From Dietzia sp. NCCP-2495 (lineage in GTDB: Bacteria; Actinomycetota; Actinomycetes; Mycobacteriales; Mycobacteriaceae), in the NCBI RefSeq assembly GCF_026011735.1, contig NZ_BRVN01000004.1, positions 1 through 64,000 of the forward strand: a stretch of DNA of 64,000 bases, written 5' to 3'. Under the pieces are notes generated by a model. That model had not been told where the DNA came from. It was given only the letters and a program-made list of their open reading frames with translations, and searched no databases. Shown piece after piece: positions 6,906-64,000 of this stretch (position 1 is the first letter of the stretch; each line of letters starts with the position of its first letter). The position numbers and the translations under genes were made by a program.

Positions 6906-7346
6906 TCAGTGGGGCCGCAGCGGCATGACGGACGAGTTGGTCACGTCCAGCACCGTCTGCCCGTCGTCGCCCACCAGCGCGGCGTCAATGACCAGCTTCG
7001 CGTCGCCCCGGTCGGGGCGTGGCTCGATCGAGCGGATCGTGATCTGCCCGGTGAGCGTCGTGCCCGGCAGGACGGGGCGACGGAAGGTCATCTCGAATCC
7101 GCGACCGATGCCACTGGGGAACCGGGTCCAGAACGCCTGCGCCGCCAGCCGCTGGTAGACGGCGAGGGTCTGGATACCGCTGGCGATCACCGAACCCAGC
7201 GGTGAGTCGTCCGCGGGGCCGGTGTGGATGGTGATCGGGTCCCATTGCCGGGCGAAGTCGACGATCGCTTCCTCGGTGAGCGTGTAGTGGCCGAGGGGGA
7301 TCTCCTGGCCCGGCGTGAGATCGTCCGCGTACAGGGTGTCGGTCAT
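6906..7346 (-). CDS. MaoC-like hot-dog dehydratase
   Basis: A 146-residue single hot-dog protein of the MaoC / R-specific enoyl-CoA hydratase group. The catalytic Asp-His pair appears in FARQWDPITIH (residues about 28-38), and the SVIASGIQTLAVYQRLAAQAF helix is typical. Such proteins hydrate enoyl-CoA or act as small thioesterase-like enzymes in lipid metabolism; the substrate is unknown. The ATG at 7346 is supported by GGAGG 6 bases upstream. It is divergent from the Old Yellow Enzyme gene and may share its control region. Confidence 0.85.
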   Translation of the reverse strand: MTDTLYADDLTPGQEIPLGHYTLTEEAIVDFARQWDPITIHTGPADDSPLGSVIASGIQTLAVYQRLAAQAFWTRFPSGIGRGFEMTFRRPVLPGTTLTGQITIRSIEPRPDRGDAKLVIDAALVGDDGQTVLDVTNSSVMPLRPH

Positions 7347-55692: not shown

Positions 55693-58059
55693 TCAGCTCC
55701 CCCCGCCACCGCCGTTGAGAACGTGCGCGACGTCGATGCGCGCCACGGTCCCGTCGGTGCGGAGTCCGCGGATCTGCGGGCCCGGGACCCAGACGGTGCC
55801 GTCGGCATCCGCGGTGACGTGCAGGTAGTTCGAGTCGACCCCCATCACACCTACCGGCAGCATGTTCGGCAGCTCGAGCAGGGTGAAGAGCCAGCGGCCG
55901 TCCTCGCGACTGAGCCGTTCGGATTCGTCTCCGTGCGGCCAGAGCCCTGACGGTCCGGTGCCGTCGGGATGGTGGGTGAGGATCCACAGGCGATTCCCGA
56001 CGAAACCAGCTTCCAGGACCATCCCTGTCGGCAGCCGGTGGACGGTGTCGAGCGTCAGATCGTCGCTCACCGTGTACACGGCGCTCGCGGCCACCACGAT
56101 CCGTCCGTCGACGATCCCGATCGCGCTGATCTGGTCGGTGAACTCGACCTCGGGTCCGATGACGACGACGCCGTCGTCATCAATAGTGGCGAGCCTATAC
56201 ACATATCGCGCGGTGAACCCACCATAGGAGCTCGGACGCATCGGTACGTCGGGAACTCCGAGCGCGACGACAAAGTGCGGATCTCCGGCCCTTCGCGGCG
56301 CGACAACCGGGCCGGGACCCCAGTCGGGCAGTTCGACCGGGCGCCGACTGCCCGCTGCGTCGATGATCACCGAGGATTCTCCGAGTACGAGCATCGTCCG
56401 GTTGTCGTACCCGCACGCAGACCACTTCCCGAGCGGTTCGGGATCCACGACCGCCTCGGTCGAATCGCGTTCGATGCGGTAGCGGCTGTTTCCGGCCAGC
56501 ACCCAGCATCCGGTCTCGTCGGGCCACACCGACAATGGCCCGGAGGAGAACATCCCCTGGGCCGCCACCGGCAACGGCAGCACAGTCTCGGTGGCGGTTC
56601 CGGTTTCCAGATCGATGCGCACGACCACCGGTAATTGTCGGTCGGTCACCCAGAGTGTCCGTCCCTGCGCAGCGGCTCGCCCGGGGGCCACGAGTGGCCG
56701 CGGCTCGGGTGGGGCCGCGGCGTCCAGGTCGAGTTCAACGATCACATCGATCGGGTACTCGCGTGTGCCGTCCGGTTGGACCTCTCCGAATCTCGGCATG
56801 TCGAACGCGTGAGGTGAGACCTCCACGTCGACCCAGCGCCGCGAATCCGGTACCGCCTCCCACTTGTTCCTGAACACGGACGTGACCTTGCGTTGCCTCA
56901 TGACCTGCACCCGGACCCGGCTGATGCGTCCGCGGGTCTCGGTCTGCCGAGCCGGGAATACCGCCTGCCCGAGCGAGTCGATCCACAGGTGCCCCCGCAC
57001 GTGGACCGCACCGATCACCGGTCTGTCGGCATCCCAGATGGCGCTCCAGCCGTCCCCCTGCAGGTGGGTCGACCATCGCATCGTCCCCTGCCAGTCGTGT
57101 CTGGGTGGCCTGCCATCCGCCGGAGTCGCCTCGGCCACGAGGGCAGTCGGCTCGGAGCCTGCGGTGGCGGTGTCGTCGTCATCTTCGGGGACGAACATCA
57201 GCGCCCACTCAACGGTCTCGCCCACGCGCGGCGGTGACACGGACCCGTCCTCGATCAGCCACGTCTCCATCCGCACGGGCAACACGCGCCCCCGGCCGCT
57301 CGGCATCTCCCGTCCCGGCGCCGGTGTGGGGTCCGTCGCCGGCTTGGGGTCCGCCTCGGACTCCGACTTAGGCTCTGGCTCGGGCTCTGGCTCGGGTCCT
57401 GATACAGGCTCTGGGAGCGCGACGTCCTCGACGTTCCAGGTCCCGTCCTCGCGTTCGGCTATCTCCAGGGGTGTCGCCTCGGTGGACTCTCCGTCCCATC
57501 GGAACGTCTCGGGGTCGATCGACTCGGGAAACTCGATGGAGGCGAACTGCGCCGAGCAGTCGCCGTCGAGCGCGGTCACCGCCAGCACCACGCCGGACTG
57601 CTGATCCACGACGATCTCCGCGTCCACGTCTGCGATGGACCCGGGCACAACCCACGTGGGCCTGCCCAGATGCGTGTCGCTGCGGACCGGCCCCGAGGGG
57701 AACGACCGCGACAGCGCCTCGTCCGCGTTCTCCGACGCCGAGATCAGCTCGTACCCGGGGCCGATCACGGGGGCGTACCGCGACTCCGTGGTGACCGGAC
57801 GCTCAGGGTTCTCGGAGAAGTCCCACGCCCAACCGTCCGCGATGAGGAAAAGCGGCGTCCCGTCCGGGCGGTCCATACGAAGCGAGCCGTCGGCCCGGGT
57901 CAGGTCCAACCCGTCCGGATGCAGGAACAGCGGCATGAACGGCACGCCGCCCGGGTACTCGAAGTGGAGGTTCGAATTCTGGTGCGCGGTGACCCGCCCC
58001 CGCACCGGGCGCCGACGCCCGCGTCGCATCGCCGCAAGTACGTCGAGCCAGTCGGTCAT
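55693..58059 (-). CDS. Large two-domain protein with charged linker and probable beta-propeller
   Basis: The 788-residue protein starts with DWLDVLAAMRRGRRRPVRGRVTAHQ and a beta-rich domain (to about 215) resembling LolA/MucB-type lipid-binding folds. A Pro-Glu repeat linker (EPEPEPEPKSESEADPKP, about 222-240) follows, then a second beta domain (to about 470). The C-terminal half has repeated short strands ending in hydrophobic or Trp residues (GRTLWVTDRQ, NRLWILTHH, DGTVWVPGPQ), typical of a six- or seven-blade propeller. No signal peptide, so it is probably cytoplasmic. Function unknown. Confidence 0.7.
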   Translation of the reverse strand: MTDWLDVLAAMRRGRRRPVRGRVTAHQNSNLHFEYPGGVPFMPLFLHPDGLDLTRADGSLRMDRPDGTPLFLIADGWAWDFSENPERPVTTESRYAPVIGPGYELISASENADEALSRSFPSGPVRSDTHLGRPTWVVPGSIADVDAEIVVDQQSGVVLAVTALDGDCSAQFASIEFPESIDPETFRWDGESTEATPLEIAEREDGTWNVEDVALPEPVSGPEPEPEPEPKSESEADPKPATDPTPAPGREMPSGRGRVLPVRMETWLIEDGSVSPPRVGETVEWALMFVPEDDDDTATAGSEPTALVAEATPADGRPPRHDWQGTMRWSTHLQGDGWSAIWDADRPVIGAVHVRGHLWIDSLGQAVFPARQTETRGRISRVRVQVMRQRKVTSVFRNKWEAVPDSRRWVDVEVSPHAFDMPRFGEVQPDGTREYPIDVIVELDLDAAAPPEPRPLVAPGRAAAQGRTLWVTDRQLPVVVRIDLETGTATETVLPLPVAAQGMFSSGPLSVWPDETGCWVLAGNSRYRIERDSTEAVVDPEPLGKWSACGYDNRTMLVLGESSVIIDAAGSRRPVELPDWGPGPVVAPRRAGDPHFVVALGVPDVPMRPSSYGGFTARYVYRLATIDDDGVVVIGPEVEFTDQISAIGIVDGRIVVAASAVYTVSDDLTLDTVHRLPTGMVLEAGFVGNRLWILTHHPDGTGPSGLWPHGDESERLSREDGRWLFTLLELPNMLPVGVMGVDSNYLHVTADADGTVWVPGPQIRGLRTDGTVARIDVAHVLNGGGGGS

Positions 58060-58896: not shown

Positions 58897-59604
58897 CTAT
58901 TGGATTCCGACCAGGGTCTGGTCGGCCCGTTTCGTAGCGTAGAACGTCGCCTCGAATTCTGCTGGCGGCACGTCATGGAGGTAGCCGTGCAGGCGGTCGT
59001 TATTGTGCCAGTGGACCCAGCTCAAGGTGGCCAGCTCGACGTCCTCGACGGTCTTCCACGGCCGTCCCTCACGTGCGGGGCCGCGGATGAGTTCGGCTTT
59101 GTAGTAGCCATTGACCGTCTCGGCCAGGGCATTGTCGTAGGAGTCAGCGACGGTGCCGATCGAGGGAGTTGCTCCGATTTCGGCGAGGCGCTCGCCGTAG
59201 CGAATCGACGTGAACTGGCTGCCGGCATCGCTGTGACACCGCAGCCCGGTCAGCTGGGTGCCACGTGACCAGCGGGCCATCTCGATCCCATCCAGGACCA
59301 TCGTGGTGCGCATGTGTGAGGCGACCCGCCATCCCACGATCGTTCGTGAGAAGGCGTCGATGATGGGGCGGACTTGCAACGCGTCGCCGGCCCCGATGCC
59401 CTGCCACCCGACTTGACGCTTCTCGACCCGCGCCCGGTCAAGCGCCGATAGCCCACTCACTGCGCACGGCCCGGCGGATCTGCCCCGGTCGGTGCCCCAC
59501 TCGCCAATCGAGGTTTCCCAAGCCGCGCCTGCCAAGACCTGGGTCGCACGCTGCAACCGGGCAAGGCCGATCCCGGAACCGCGCCGCCAGTCCAACAGGA
59601 GCAC
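58897..59604 (-). pseudogene. Degenerate IS3-family transposase (orfB part)
   Basis: The conserved integrase core is present from IDAFSRTIVGWRVASHMRT through HSDAGSQFTS (second catalytic Asp), DSYDNALAETVNGYYKAELI (catalytic Glu) and LSWVHWHNNDRLHGYL to PPAEFEATFYA. The upstream part with the first Asp (VADFTY in relatives) and the HTH region are missing or in other frames, and orfA is absent. It is therefore inactive. No matching terminal inverted repeats could be assigned. Confidence 0.88.
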
Positions 59605-59637
59605 AGAACGCGACTTGTCGGCGAAGTGGCGGTCCGC

Positions 59638-61701
59638 TTATCCGACGAACCCGGCGTTACCGTGAGCGATCCGACATCCTGCTGCGAGTGCTCGTACTCC
59701 AGATTCAAACTCGTTGAACTGGAGTCTTTTCGGCCCTCCCTGAAGTCGTTGGGGCTTGATGTCCAGGTCGCGGGCGGTGACTGCGATGGGGTCATAGGGC
59801 ATGAACCTTGGTCGGGCAATGTTGACCCAGGGCCACCGTCGGCCGGCGTCTTCTCCCAGGTGGTCGGCCACCAGATCTGGGTCTTCTTCCGCGCTGTGGG
59901 CGATTTCCACCACGGCCACGCATCCGTGCTCCTCCTTGGAGTAGAGAAGGACCAGGTCGCCGGGTGCGCACGATGGCTTATTGCTGGAGGAGAACCATCC
60001 ACCAGGAACCCAGCCATCCGGGTCCGGAGTGTTGTTCAACGTCTTAATCCACAGCCCAACGCCGTCGTGGCGGGCCTCCTCAACCAGTTGGGCTACGACA
60101 GCGTCGAGGTCACCAGGGGGACGGGGTCCAGATGGGCCGGGACGCGGGTCAGGCGGCAATGCGGCCGCCCGGCGCTCGAGGTGATCGATGTCGGCCTGCC
60201 CGACCTCAAAACCCTCGTCCCACCACTGATCCAGGATCTTCTGCACTCGTGGCACGTCGGAGCGGGGGACGACCACCGATAGCTCCAGGTTGGCAGTCTT
60301 AGCGGAGCCGAGGCCGGCGCCGGTGAGGTTGGCCGATCCGATCATGGCGAACGATTCGCCGACCACGTATGCCTTGGCGTGGAGCTGGGGGCAGTCTTGG
60401 ATCATCACCCCCGCCTCCAGCAGCCTGGTCAAGCCCGCGATGGACAGGTAGCTGTTGGCTGCGGCGCGGGGATCGAAGCAGGTGAGCAGGTACCACTCGT
60501 GCCGTGAGCGTTCGGCGAGTTCGGCTAGGCGCAGCGCTATCGGTTCGGAGAGGTAGGGGCTGGCCAAGGTGACCTGCCCACTGTCGGAGTTCAGGGCCTC
60601 GAACAGTTCGGGTTCGGCGTGGTCAACGATCACGGTGGTCTCCTGGGGCTCAACTAGTCGGTCGCGGGGTTCGGTGCTTCGTATCGACTTGGGGGCCACG
60701 TTGTAGATCCGGCCGTCCTCACCGAGCAGCACGCAGGTCTTTTCGTCCGACTCCCAGGCCGGGTCGCCACCGTGATCCGGAAGTCCGGCGTACCGGCCCA
60801 TGACTAGACGTCCGTTCTGCCGCAGCCGTGGGTGCTCGAGTTCTGGGCGCATGATGGTGCCCGCAATCCGTGCACGCAGACGCTCCTCGCCCGTTGGGTG
60901 CCGCACCTGCGGGTAGTGGGAGTCGTCCTCTGTCCAATACTGTCCGCAGTCGCCGCACCGGAACTCGTGCGTCACGCCGATGATGACGCAGCCGGCCGTC
61001 TCGTACCCAGGGGGAGGGGGACCGGGTGGAAACCCCCACAGCACTCGTACCGTGTGCTCGGCGGAACAGGAGGGACACGGTGGCCGGCCCTCCCCCAATA
61101 AGTCGGCTATCTGCGGTTCGACAGGGGAGTGGAGACGGTCGTGGCAGTCACGACAGACTGCGATTTCCCTGCACACGTCGTCAGGATGATTAGCGACATG
61201 CCACTCGAGATCTCGCTCTTCGCGCTCGCACACCGGGCAGCCGTACGCCGCGTGCTGGCCGGAGTCCCAGGGAACACGGGCGCACTTGGCATCGCCAAGC
61301 TCACGCCACGGAGTCGGAGATTCGGCCTCGGCCAGCACCGCTGCCCGGACCTTGTCCGCTAGGGCGGGATCAATCGTGCCCGGAAGAGACGGGAACGGGC
61401 ATCCGAGCCGACGCTCGACCGCGGCAACCGAGACACCGTCCGGGTAGAACCAGAGGCTCTCGAAATCGAGCCCGTCCGGACTGTGCGGCCCATCGATGAC
61501 GTAGTCCCACTCGACGATGGCCGGCCTCGCCGATCCGGTGACGTGGAAGATCTCATCACCGGGGGCACACCCCTCGGGAAGAACCCAGTCGACATCATTC
61601 AGATCGGCCCTGTCGTCGCCGGTGAAAAACGCCACTGCCTTGTGCGCCGGCGTGATCACAGAGACGTGCAGCTGGTTACGGGCAGTCGTGGCATGGGCCA
61701 T
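59638..61701 (-). CDS. HNH-like / zinc-ribbon / PLD nuclease / EVE-like multidomain protein
   Basis: The 687-residue protein contains, in order: an uncharacterised N-terminal region (1-140); an HNH-like zinc segment (about 155-191) with CPVC, EWHVANHPDD and CRDCHDRLHS; a zinc-ribbon with CPSC (209) and CGDC (249); a phospholipase D-type nuclease domain (about 365-500) with HAKAYVV and IGSANLTGAGLGS (His441, Lys443, Asn458); and a C-terminal EVE/PUA-like region (about 545-660) with LWIKTLNNT and FSSSNKPSCAPGDLVLLYSKE. EVE domains bind modified bases. The gene follows a Gabija-like pair on the same strand. A defence role is inferred. Confidence 0.8.
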   Translation of the reverse strand: MAHATTARNQLHVSVITPAHKAVAFFTGDDRADLNDVDWVLPEGCAPGDEIFHVTGSARPAIVEWDYVIDGPHSPDGLDFESLWFYPDGVSVAAVERRLGCPFPSLPGTIDPALADKVRAAVLAEAESPTPWRELGDAKCARVPWDSGQHAAYGCPVCEREERDLEWHVANHPDDVCREIAVCRDCHDRLHSPVEPQIADLLGEGRPPCPSCSAEHTVRVLWGFPPGPPPPGYETAGCVIIGVTHEFRCGDCGQYWTEDDSHYPQVRHPTGEERLRARIAGTIMRPELEHPRLRQNGRLVMGRYAGLPDHGGDPAWESDEKTCVLLGEDGRIYNVAPKSIRSTEPRDRLVEPQETTVIVDHAEPELFEALNSDSGQVTLASPYLSEPIALRLAELAERSRHEWYLLTCFDPRAAANSYLSIAGLTRLLEAGVMIQDCPQLHAKAYVVGESFAMIGSANLTGAGLGSAKTANLELSVVVPRSDVPRVQKILDQWWDEGFEVGQADIDHLERRAAALPPDPRPGPSGPRPPGDLDAVVAQLVEEARHDGVGLWIKTLNNTPDPDGWVPGGWFSSSNKPSCAPGDLVLLYSKEEHGCVAVVEIAHSAEEDPDLVADHLGEDAGRRWPWVNIARPRFMPYDPIAVTARDLDIKPQRLQGGPKRLQFNEFESGVRALAAGCRIAHGNAGFVG

Positions 61702-61867
61702 ACCTGCCGATGGTAAACGTCTCAGCGCCTAGCGCGTCGGTCTCTGCGTCGGCCGTTGAGATCACCGAACCCTGCTGACCTGCGAACATGACGGAACACA
61801 CATTATCGGCAATGGCCTGTTGCACAAGGACAAGGCGGTGACTGCGGCTACACCCCGCCCCCCGCTG

Positions 61868-63328
61868 CTACTCAAGGGCAAGCTCAAGTCGAGGACTTCT
61901 CCCGATCACAGAAACTGACTTTCTGGCTCGGCTTAGAGCTACGTAGAGCTGCCTTGGGTCGGAGAAATTCTGGACATTCGCGATGAGCACGTGGTCGAAC
62001 TCCAGCCCTTTCACTAGCAGAGTCCTAGAGGCGATCCGTTTACGCTCGCTGCGGCCACCGTGGCGTAGCCGGTCGCGAACGACCGCCAACGCATCTCCCG
62101 GCGACGTCCCTTCCTCGACGACAATCGCGACTGCTCTGAACGTGTCGTCCCAGGCTTCTTGCCGGTAGAGCTTCAGTCCAGGGGCTGTCCGGATCGCAGC
62201 GGCTGCCATGCACAGCTGGTCGTAGACCGGATTCGCGATGAGGCCATCAAGAGCAGTCTGCACCGGCATCAGCCCCTCGCGCTTGAGGTCGGAGACCGTC
62301 TGGCCCTTCTCAAGCCGTCGCTTGACCGTGGCGTCAAGACCCGCCAGGCCAACGAAGCAGCTCTTGGCCATCTCGACAAGCCACGCTGCCAGTAGAACGT
62401 CCTCCTCTGCCGGGAGGTTAGCGAGATGCTTGGCCATGAATCGGCCCGCCACGTCCTCCATTACAGCGTAGGAGCCGCCGAGACGGCTTGCGTGATTGGC
62501 GACCTGATCTGGCAGCTTGTCGAGTAAGACAACCGATTCCCCGGCGCTCGAAAGGTCGTACGCTGCCTTGTTAACTGTCTGTACCGCGGTCTTGAAGTCG
62601 GACTGCCTCCAATCAAGTCCCACCACGGAGTGTGCGGAGAAGTCGAACGAGCCTCCATTGACCAGGGACGGCCGGATGTCGAGTAGCCACTGCCCGAAGC
62701 TCACATTGTGTTTGCGCCAGCGCTGCGGCACGTACGGGACGGCCTTGGGTGGGTAGCGAGGCGTGACATGGGTGTCCCAGTCCATCAGAGGGCGCTTCTT
62801 GTCGAAACCGAAAATGGCCTGTAGGCGGTCACCTAGAAGGACCGCTCGAGGCACAGCCTCGGAGATCTCGACAATCAGCTCGTGTTGGTCGACGGTGCAG
62901 TCCTGGTACTCATCGACGAACAGGTAGCCGAAGCTCACGGCGTGGACCTGGCGCACTGCTGCAGTATTCGCCACCACAGTGGCACCCTCGACATACTCCC
63001 GGGAGGTATCCCAGTTGGGAACTGCAGGGACGCTGATTCCAGCGATACCCGGGAAAGACCGTGAGAGTATGAACGCCCAAGTGGTAATTGTTTCGACTCG
63101 CACCATGCTTGACGGGACACCGAAGCGTCTTAGTCGACTCCGGATGGCATCCACACCGGCATTGGTGTGCGTAAGGACGAGCGACCTCACGCCTTGCTTA
63201 GCCGCCGTGGCGACACACGCCGCTAGGAGCTCCGTCTTGCCGGTTCCGGCGGGCATCTCCAGCGAACATGGCGCTTCGGCAATTACCTCGGCTGCCAACC
63301 TGCTCAGCTCATCGCTACCCGCCTGCAT
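61868..63328 (-). CDS. gajB: UvrD/PcrA-like helicase, GajB-like
   Basis: The 486-residue superfamily 1 helicase has Walker A LEMPAGTGKTELL (about 24-35), VLTHTNAGVDAIRSRL, Walker B LFVDEYQDC (about 137-144), the GDRLQAIFGFD motif III region and the C-terminal LYVALSRARKSVSVIG motif VI. It is shorter than UvrD (about 720), as GajB proteins are. ATG at 63328 has GGAG 8 bases upstream and overlaps the nuclease gene stop by 14 bases; a GTG at 63349 is possible. In Gabija, GajB supports the GajA nuclease. Confidence 0.85.
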   Translation of the reverse strand: MQAGSDELSRLAAEVIAEAPCSLEMPAGTGKTELLAACVATAAKQGVRSLVLTHTNAGVDAIRSRLRRFGVPSSMVRVETITTWAFILSRSFPGIAGISVPAVPNWDTSREYVEGATVVANTAAVRQVHAVSFGYLFVDEYQDCTVDQHELIVEISEAVPRAVLLGDRLQAIFGFDKKRPLMDWDTHVTPRYPPKAVPYVPQRWRKHNVSFGQWLLDIRPSLVNGGSFDFSAHSVVGLDWRQSDFKTAVQTVNKAAYDLSSAGESVVLLDKLPDQVANHASRLGGSYAVMEDVAGRFMAKHLANLPAEEDVLLAAWLVEMAKSCFVGLAGLDATVKRRLEKGQTVSDLKREGLMPVQTALDGLIANPVYDQLCMAAAAIRTAPGLKLYRQEAWDDTFRAVAIVVEEGTSPGDALAVVRDRLRHGGRSERKRIASRTLLVKGLEFDHVLIANVQNFSDPRQLYVALSRARKSVSVIGRSPRLELALE

Positions 63329-64000
63329 CGGTCGACTCCGCGGCTTCACGAGTTGGCGACACTTCGTACGCGAACGCCTTGATCAGATCGAGCCGAGCGA
63401 ACACGGCTACGAGGTTCGGCGAGGTACGCCGCTCCAGCAGCCACTCTCCGAGCGCACGCCCGGCGTCAACATTCTTGAACCAGCCCCGCTTGCTTGCTGC
63501 GAGCGCAACAAGCTCGCGAGCCTCCTCGATGCTTTGGGCGCCGAGCCAGTCCGCCACCACCAGGTTCCTGACCTGCGCTCGGCCCCGGCTGTTGATGTCG
63601 TCGAGCACCGTGCTCGTGGCGCCACGATGTTCCACTCCGAGCGATATGAAGTCCTGAAGTTCGTCAGTATCGAGCTGAGAGCAGATTTGAGACTCGATGC
63701 AGTGGGGGAATTCCCAGCGGACAACTGTGGCGCCAGCCTGCTCGGCTTTGACTACGTGCGGGTCTGCTGTGCGCACATCATTGTCGATCAGGGCCAGCGC
63801 GGAGCATCCGAGCGGTGCCATTGCTTCAGCTCGATTGACAGCCTTCTCGCCACCGTTTCCGTTCTGGATGGCCAGTCCCTCGCCGGCTGCAGTCGTGAAC
63901 CCTGCTGCGCTGCGCTCTTGGTCCCAAGTATCGAAACAGGCCGCCAAGACGCCGTGTTCGGTCTTGCCTTCCCCGATGACGATCTTCCGAGCCAGCAGCG
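63315..64000 (-). CDS. gajA: OLD-family TOPRIM nuclease, GajA-like (5' part outside the window)
   Basis: About 228 C-terminal residues are inside the window. They begin in LLARKIVIGEGKTEHG, which carries the TOPRIM catalytic Glu, and continue with ALALIDNDVRTADPH (the DxD-type acidic motif) and a helical tail. The ABC-type ATPase half of GajA should lie beyond position 64000. The next gene overlaps its stop and encodes a UvrD-like helicase, the order seen in Gabija systems. The assignment rests on the TOPRIM motifs and the partner gene, since the ATPase half is not visible. Confidence 0.8.
   Translation of the reverse strand, partial: LLARKIVIGEGKTEHGVLAACFDTWDQERSAAGFTTAAGEGLAIQNGNGGEKAVNRAEAMAPLGCSALALIDNDVRTADPHVVKAEQAGATVVRWEFPHCIESQICSQLDTDELQDFISLGVEHRGATSTVLDDINSRGRAQVRNLVVADWLGAQSIEEARELVALAASKRGWFKNVDAGRALGEWLLERRTSPNLVAVFARLDLIKAFAYEVSPTREAAESTDAGG

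Follow-up and report, generated by a model that had tools for sequence, protein, structure and literature searches.

In Dietzia sp. NCCP-2495, the stretch of DNA that we analysed (the window: bases 1–64,000 of the 222,861-bp contig NZ_BRVN01000004.1) ends in a Gabija-type gene pair, gajA and gajB, followed on the same strand by a gene for a 687-residue protein (the 687 protein). The initial annotation had read the three genes as a joined or composite Gabija system. We examined the domains of the 687 protein, its relatives and the company its gene keeps. The features of the locus are listed here; open reading frames (ORFs) were called by a simple rule on third-position GC content, and starts may be off. 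E stands for expect value.

59638..61701, minus strand: the 687-residue ORF, with zinc module A, a PLD nuclease domain and a C-terminal EVE-like domain (ORF call, Pfam, profile comparison, constraint in all regions)
60652..61701, minus strand: module A, residues 1–350, with relatives that also stand alone (L028, L029, L034–L038, plasmids L072–L075; sequence searches, alignments)
61129..61239, minus strand: zinc finger C155-x2-C158...H168...C183-x2-C186-H187-x3-H191, HNH-like in looks only (invariant alignment columns)
60946..61077, minus strand: zinc-ribbon-like C209-x2-C212...C249-x2-C252 (alignment)
60220..60603, minus strand: PLD domain, residues 367–494, single motif H441-x-K443...G455-S456-x-N458...E473 (Pfam PLDc_2, E 2e-8; invariant residues)
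59662..60069, minus strand: EVE/PUA-like domain, about residues 545–680, with W569, GDLVLLYS and RWPW (hhalign against EVE members, probability 94.3; a reverse search finds the EVE-family locus of genome G554)
61702..61811, minus strand: conserved leader upstream of the 687 gene, found in three gene contexts (GATAAT in two, GATAGT in the third)
59606..61811, minus strand: 2.2-kb block of leader, gene and short tail (85.8% identity with D. massiliensis and 86.2% with plasmid pDK2035-59, where the neighbours differ)
61868..63349, minus strand: GajB, 493 residues, a UvrD-like helicase (PADLOC, Pfam)
63315..64000, minus strand: the 3' part of gajA that falls within the window (the ORF continues to contig position 65180, which is position 7181 of record L002)
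58897..59604, minus strand: ORF of an IS3-type transposase (integrase core), apparently a fragment, abutting the 2.2-kb block (Pfam rve, rve_2, rve_3)

The PLD nuclease region named in the initial annotation is confirmed by the Pfam match, and the H-x-K, GS-x-N and E residues are invariant across five aligned proteins with the C-terminal PLD-EVE half (module B). The domain thus keeps the catalytic residues of the family, in the BfiI-type form, where each chain has a single PLD motif that includes H-x-K, N and E. The spacing from H to E is 32 residues, compared with 31 in BfiI by the published numbering. The match to NgoFVII-type PLD was weak (E 0.047), and the best PADLOC matches of the domain were DrmC (E 1.7e-7) and ZacB (E 8.2e-6). 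A module-B profile matched 79 of 396 genomes of the phylum; because most of these matches were to the PLD part alone, we kept them out of the context counts.

By its profile, the C-terminal domain is EVE-like but remote. Comparing eight C-terminal domains with a pooled set of 19 PF01878-family members, which came from genome searches, gave a probability of 94.3 and a score of 48.6 over 103 columns, while the best of 60 column shuffles scored 20.3. The 19 were drawn from 30 fetched EVE loci, the rest, mainly shorter, partial or divergent, having been excluded before the run. Separate EVE subgroups gave probabilities of 69.8, 19.9 and 80.7 (scores 34.8, 26.2 and 36.9), with shuffle maxima of 19.1 for the first and 22.5 for the second; the third was compared without shuffles. 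PLD, Mrr and GajA controls scored no higher than 17.5 against the EVE sets, the Mrr and GajA controls being single sequences. W569 fell in the alignment on the tryptophan of EVE domains, which in structure 2eve is W26, a residue named in PMC7897488. A reverse search with the domain profile in 276 genomes of the phylum returned the genome’s own two copies, G546 (a member of the profile) and three weak loci, one of which, in G554 (E 3.4e-4), is itself an EVE hit at E 3e-8. The remaining EVE-positive genomes were absent from the matches, except G546 at another place. Membership of the EVE family is supported by profile comparison only, the Pfam match being under its cut-off, and both structure models had a mean predicted local distance difference test (pLDDT) below 40. 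At that level the EVE/PUA-like region of the initial annotation, which was to fall if the C-terminal region were not EVE/PUA, holds.

Module A fits that annotation less well. The zinc-ribbon assignment stands, the C209/C212 and C249/C252 pairs being invariant in 10 aligned members. In the same alignment the cysteines, H187 and H191 of the zinc finger are invariant and H168 nearly so, while variation is seen at the middle position and in the residue that follows H168, and several distant members lack the histidines. No HNH family appeared among the Pfam matches of these 10 members at E ≤ 1, in a search whose HMMER filters drop most matches above about 0.1. Comparing 13 module-A members with PF01844 members by hhalign (up to 27 of 30 fetched HNH loci) gave a score of 11.8, inside both nulls (maxima 15.4 with free shuffling and 20.3 with the cysteine columns kept). 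With no match in Pfam or to PF01844, variable positions and lost histidines, we rejected the HNH identity of module A, so of the two nuclease-type modules that had been proposed for this protein the PLD domain alone is confirmed. A structural zinc finger is the plainer reading of the C155–H191 site.

We also considered a second EVE-like domain at residues 1–140, where a GD-x-V pattern (residues 43–72) aligns in the EVE register. The N-terminal profile scored 17.2 against the pooled EVE set, above all 60 shuffles (maximum 15.5) with a probability of 1.2, but this is no higher than the 17.5 of the unrelated Mrr control, and the scores against two EVE subgroups lay within the null. Against a wider EVE set, compared without a shuffle null, the probability was 2.9. 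Tested twice, this domain was not established.

The 687 protein is a fusion of two modules, each of which also occurs alone. With weak matches included, tblastn gave hits in 6 genomes out of 61 related ones and, across the order, in 15 out of 397. Besides the standalone module-A loci listed above, the PLD-EVE module stands alone at L032 and L033 and, split over two ORFs, at L031. Of eight matching plasmid records, two are from Dietzia kunjamensis and encode full-length proteins (84% and 42%), while four from Gordonia and two from Rhodococcus carry module A alone. Six of the eight were used for neighbourhoods, those omitted being Rhodococcus sp. p52 and a Gordonia record whose length equals that of L073's. 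D. massiliensis (G008) has an orthologue at 83%, and one relative came from a scan of genome contigs. There were no relatives among phage records at E 1e-5, and none among viral contigs in single-protein scans, which reach close relatives only. The window’s genome holds a 45% paralogue standing alone in another contig, C18 (L026, 8970–11060), and in G001 a C-terminal remnant only (L030, 1823–2140) has similar genes around it.

The gene is under constraint. The ratio of non-synonymous to synonymous substitution rates (dN/dS) was 0.15–0.31 in all regions when the window gene was compared with D. massiliensis and pDK2035-59, and 0.41 overall for the very close pair D. massiliensis and pDK2035-59. 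Between gene position 930 and the stop codon that pair differs by only 4 bases: dS is about 0.18 over residues 1–262 and 0 over the PLD and EVE parts. The two genes are thus mosaic, with recent recombination near the module boundary (window 59638–60772 and its equivalents in L027 and L070).

The block that holds the gene bears on the Gabija question. The window’s contig and D. massiliensis are 93.8% identical over the Mrr gene and the 3' end of a Type ISP gene, 88.5% over what remains of that gene and 85.8% over the 2201 bp of the block around the 687 gene. Both genomes thus share the Mrr and Type ISP neighbours, but between Mrr and the block our contig has Gabija whereas D. massiliensis has an exonuclease pair. 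On pDK2035-59 the same block, with the same upstream limit, adjoins Type III Mod and Res genes. The leader, which starts 110–120 bp ahead of the start codon and carries a GATAAT-like element (GATAGT on pDK2035-59), is kept over about 110 bp where gajB does not precede the gene. GajA or GajB (tblastn, E ≤ 1e-8) occurred in 1 of 19 neighbourhoods (13 genome and 6 plasmid loci), or beside one of the five full-length proteins, and both were absent from a twentieth neighbourhood, that of the remnant L030. The only other strong GajB match among 201 genomes of the family was in G894 (38%), with GajA adjacent; the locus seen there spans 4.4 kb, and a relative may lie beyond its ends. The count of homologues near GajA/GajB, which the initial annotation had proposed as a check, therefore speaks against the joined or extended system, which is not supported.

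Two further observations concern the D. massiliensis island. About 440 bp of the Type ISP gene (L002, 9000–9437), overlapping the start of the specificity domain, cannot be aligned with the D. massiliensis copy; the two enzymes may therefore recognise different sites. In D. massiliensis, the stretch that corresponds to window 61868 through contig 65180 (L027, 11186–12774) holds an RNase T/BRCT exonuclease (PADLOC PDC-S48-like, E 9.9e-36) and a 202-residue ORF that had no Pfam or PADLOC matches; together they are possibly an undescribed two-gene system.

The neighbouring pair itself matches Gabija. The gajA and gajB ORFs overlap by 35 nt with the first gajB start codon, and by less with a later one, and match the PADLOC models of GajA (63315..63998, the C-terminal part, E 7.1e-39) and GajB (E 3.9e-128; UvrD, E 5.4e-12). 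The ATPase half of GajA, sought past position 64,000, is there: the complete 621-residue ORF (L002, 5316..7181) has ABC-ATPase matches (AAA_21, E 2.3e-18). The TOPRIM match (OLD-like_TOPRIM, E 0.008) lies under its cut-off; the motifs GEGKTE, DND and GWFKN were spotted by eye, and the TOPRIM catalytic residues of Gabija are given as E379, D511 and K541 (PMC8136825). In the PDB comparison GajA structures were matched at E 2.5e-4, behind PtuA and OLD chains, and GajB matched no chain at E ≤ 0.001. The pair thus has the OLD/ABC-type ATPase with TOPRIM and the adjoining UvrD-like helicase of Gabija. Upstream, beyond the window, lie a 361-residue ORF of the Mrr type (PADLOC Type IV enzyme, E 7e-81; Pfam Mrr_cat, E 6.2e-37) and a 1642-residue Type ISP restriction–modification (R-M) protein (Type_ISP_C, E 8.6e-90). 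The transposase ORF is the immediate downstream neighbour of the 687 gene. Adjoining the island, window 55693–58059 encodes a 788-residue protein of unknown function with a weak DUF6578 match (E 0.02), and a DnaB-like ORF at L002 16399–18288 has an apparent small intein after GVGK (by eye).

Relatives of the 687 gene are not rarely near defence genes, the finding that was to count against the initial annotation. R-M or helicase-type defence genes lie within about 10 kb at 8 of 13 genome loci: Type ISP genes in G000 (the window’s genome), G008 and G369, a Type I system in G097, an MmeI-type gene with a PLD-SNF2 helicase in G194, a DrmMI/Type IIG-like gene with an AAA-Mrr_N protein in G345, and helicase plus PLD genes in G021 and, by gene order only at a contig edge, G022. 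Three of six plasmid loci (L070, L072 and L073) have an adjacent R-M gene, which is of the MmeI type on the Gordonia plasmid L072 and likewise, by annotation and length, at L073; none was recognised at L071 and L074, nor any other defence gene. On a Rhodococcus plasmid, E1-E2 and JAB genes of the CBASS type, with a gene annotated as nucleotidyltransferase, lie 7–8 kb away from module A (L075, 18437–20840). Neighbourhoods L028, L029, L036 and L037 end at contig edges, where neighbours may be missed.

The association with adenine methyltransferase families is above chance. An N6_Mtase (PF02384) gene lies within 10 kb at 5 of 13 loci compared with about 1% expected (binomial P 1e-7, or 4e-6 with the orthologous island counted once), an estimate that takes methyltransferase hits as evenly spread, rounds genome sizes and uses a family not meant for Type III or MmeI-type enzymes. 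The count dropped the decayed remnant of G001 and the matches of at most 30 bits (G117, G348, G215, G188, G370 and G175), merged two pieces in G429 and retained G212 (43 bits). Two genomes that belong to a single genus have a module-A-like gene immediately ahead of a gene for an Fpg/Nei-type DNA glycosylase (L036, 177–1886; L037, 9547–11193), recognised by eye from its MPELPE start. A scan for that motif in 17 other locus records, which cover 16 distinct places with some 1.5 kb of flank apiece and in some cases lack a clear module-A ORF, did not find it.

Taking these results together, we lean towards the view that the 687 protein works on its own as a self-contained restriction enzyme of a Type IV-like kind, and that its gene forms a separate cassette. 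The protein’s domains, recognised at sequence and profile level, its modularity, the same block in three contexts, the constraint and the closeness to methyltransferase genes carry this view, and a GC contrast (65%, compared with 70.5% in window 1–50000) was counted for it. The mode of action is inferred. The C-terminal domain would flip and read a modified base, and the single-motif PLD domain would cut nearby DNA without a metal ion, probably as a dimer with one common active site by analogy with BfiI. For the zinc module, DNA binding or gating of the nuclease is the probable role, and HNH nuclease activity is improbable. The gene would reside in horizontally acquired islands and plasmids, often by R-M systems that, from their families, predictably methylate adenine, and a modification-dependent enzyme in such a place could catch phages that escape the R-M system through DNA modification. 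Gabija would be another, exchangeable system within the same island.

Several results weigh against this view. The Pfam EVE match of the 687 protein has an E of 0.17, below cut-off, a PDB search with the domain profile, taken to E 10, matched no EVE structure, and the domain is far from ordinary EVE proteins, since its profile found few others in the 276 genomes. The aspartate of the HKD motif is glycine in four distinct Dietzia sequences. AlphaFold models from two input sequences (window and L069) were unusable, with mean pLDDT of 32.8 for module A and 37.3 for module B. Five of 13 genome loci (G000 C18, G429, G366, G026 and G212) have no recognised R-M or defence gene, judged mostly by eye. 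Broad targeting of 5-methylcytosine (m5C) is disfavoured because both genome assemblies with full-length copies, G000 and G008, encode a cytosine-C5 methyltransferase, as do 4 of 15 other same-genus genomes searched; avoidance of m5C by carriers was looked for in same-genus genomes, a set with D. kunjamensis outside it, and not seen. Because the neighbours predictably methylate adenine and the hosts carry the cytosine enzyme, a generic N6-methyladenine or m5C target looks unsafe for the host.

The R-M neighbours also suggest a different role, that of an accessory subunit of the adjoining adenine-methylating system, reading local methylation or docking on the neighbouring enzyme. Relatives by Type ISP, Type III, MmeI-type, Type I and DrmMI/Type IIG-like genes and the N6_Mtase closeness fit such a role, but these are unrelated kinds of R-M system and thus point to no fixed partner, full-length copies stand without recognised R-M or Gabija genes in C18 (L026, by eye) and on pDK2035-53 (L071, by annotation), and on pDK2035-59 the gene lies on the strand opposite to Mod and Res; we think it unlikely. 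The role as third Gabija subunit, for which the position 166 bp downstream of gajB on the same strand in one genome speaks, is largely refuted by the single Gabija neighbourhood, the exonuclease pair in D. massiliensis and the leader conserved without gajB, and we give it next to no weight.

Zinc ribbons are found in RNA-acting proteins, a point for an RNA- or transfer-RNA-directed nuclease or regulator whose PUA-like domain reads modified RNA. EVE-like domains have also been linked to modified RNA (PMC7641849), yet the location among DNA restriction genes and the DrmC and ZacB matches of the PLD domain make such a role improbable. Fusion of two modification-dependent enzymes head to tail, module A being an active HNH nuclease with its own reader, would explain the HNH-like look of C-x2-C-H-x3-H, the occurrence of both modules alone near R-M genes and the N-terminal GD-x-V pattern with its score above the shuffles. 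It is very improbable given the control-level N-terminal score, the null-level subgroup comparisons, the unmatched HNH family and the variable or missing residues. We regard as improbable a further idea about the portable zinc module, which when alone has MmeI-type, helicase and DNA-glycosylase-like neighbours: that it is a plug-in sensor of DNA state and, once fused to a PLD-EVE nuclease, makes a partner for whichever R-M system methylates adenine, with the local methylation mark, and not a phage base, as what it may test. Of the composite-defence proposal, the coupling of a nuclease with an EVE-like reader among defence genes is supported; the link to Gabija and the second nuclease are not.

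A Type IV-like enzyme of this kind would have known kin. Bell, Wolf and Koonin (2020, PMC7641849) describe fusions of PLDc and EVE among the putative restriction enzymes that depend on modification, and the 687 protein resembles them in joining a PLD nuclease and an EVE-type domain in a defence context. It differs in the 350-residue N-terminal zinc module, which section 9 of that paper does not mention, and in its divergent, RWPW-type EVE part. BfiI is described as a homodimer with one metal-independent site and the residue set His105/Lys107/N125/E136 (PMC4081073); like BfiI and NgoFVII endonucleases, the 687 protein has an H-x-K, N, E set (H441, K443, N458 and E473) and, like BfiI, a C-terminal recognition domain. 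However, that domain is EVE-like (by its EVE match), whereas that of BfiI is B3-like, and the 687 protein has no cognate methyltransferase shown. The endonuclease VcaM4I (PMC7897488) likewise couples an EVE-type base reader to a nuclease, but there it is HNH, unsupported here, with the domain order reversed relative to our PLD protein. A published plasmid island in which BREX and BrxU, a Type IV enzyme, occur together (PMC8565348) offers a parallel for a methylating system adjoining a Type IV enzyme on a mobile element, although BrxU belongs to the GmrSD family and the neighbours of 687-type genes are other R-M types. Gabija, the immediate neighbour in the window, is exchangeable and separate from the 687 unit. 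In the open-access literature, covered by titles and the starts of abstracts, with subscription papers mostly outside, neither a zinc module fused to PLD-EVE nor a 687 gene by Gabija was described. The PLD-EVE class is already known; what differs is the zinc-module fusion and the divergent EVE-like part.

The same block by Gabija, by an exonuclease pair and by a Type III R-M system is a natural experiment that corrects a reading of a three-gene Gabija based on neighbours. If the inferred function is true, the combination of zinc module, PLD nuclease and EVE-like domain would add an uncharacterised architecture to the predicted Type IV enzymes, and the island would show clearly how the defence genes that lie between a Type IV-like gene and an R-M/Mrr unit can be swapped.

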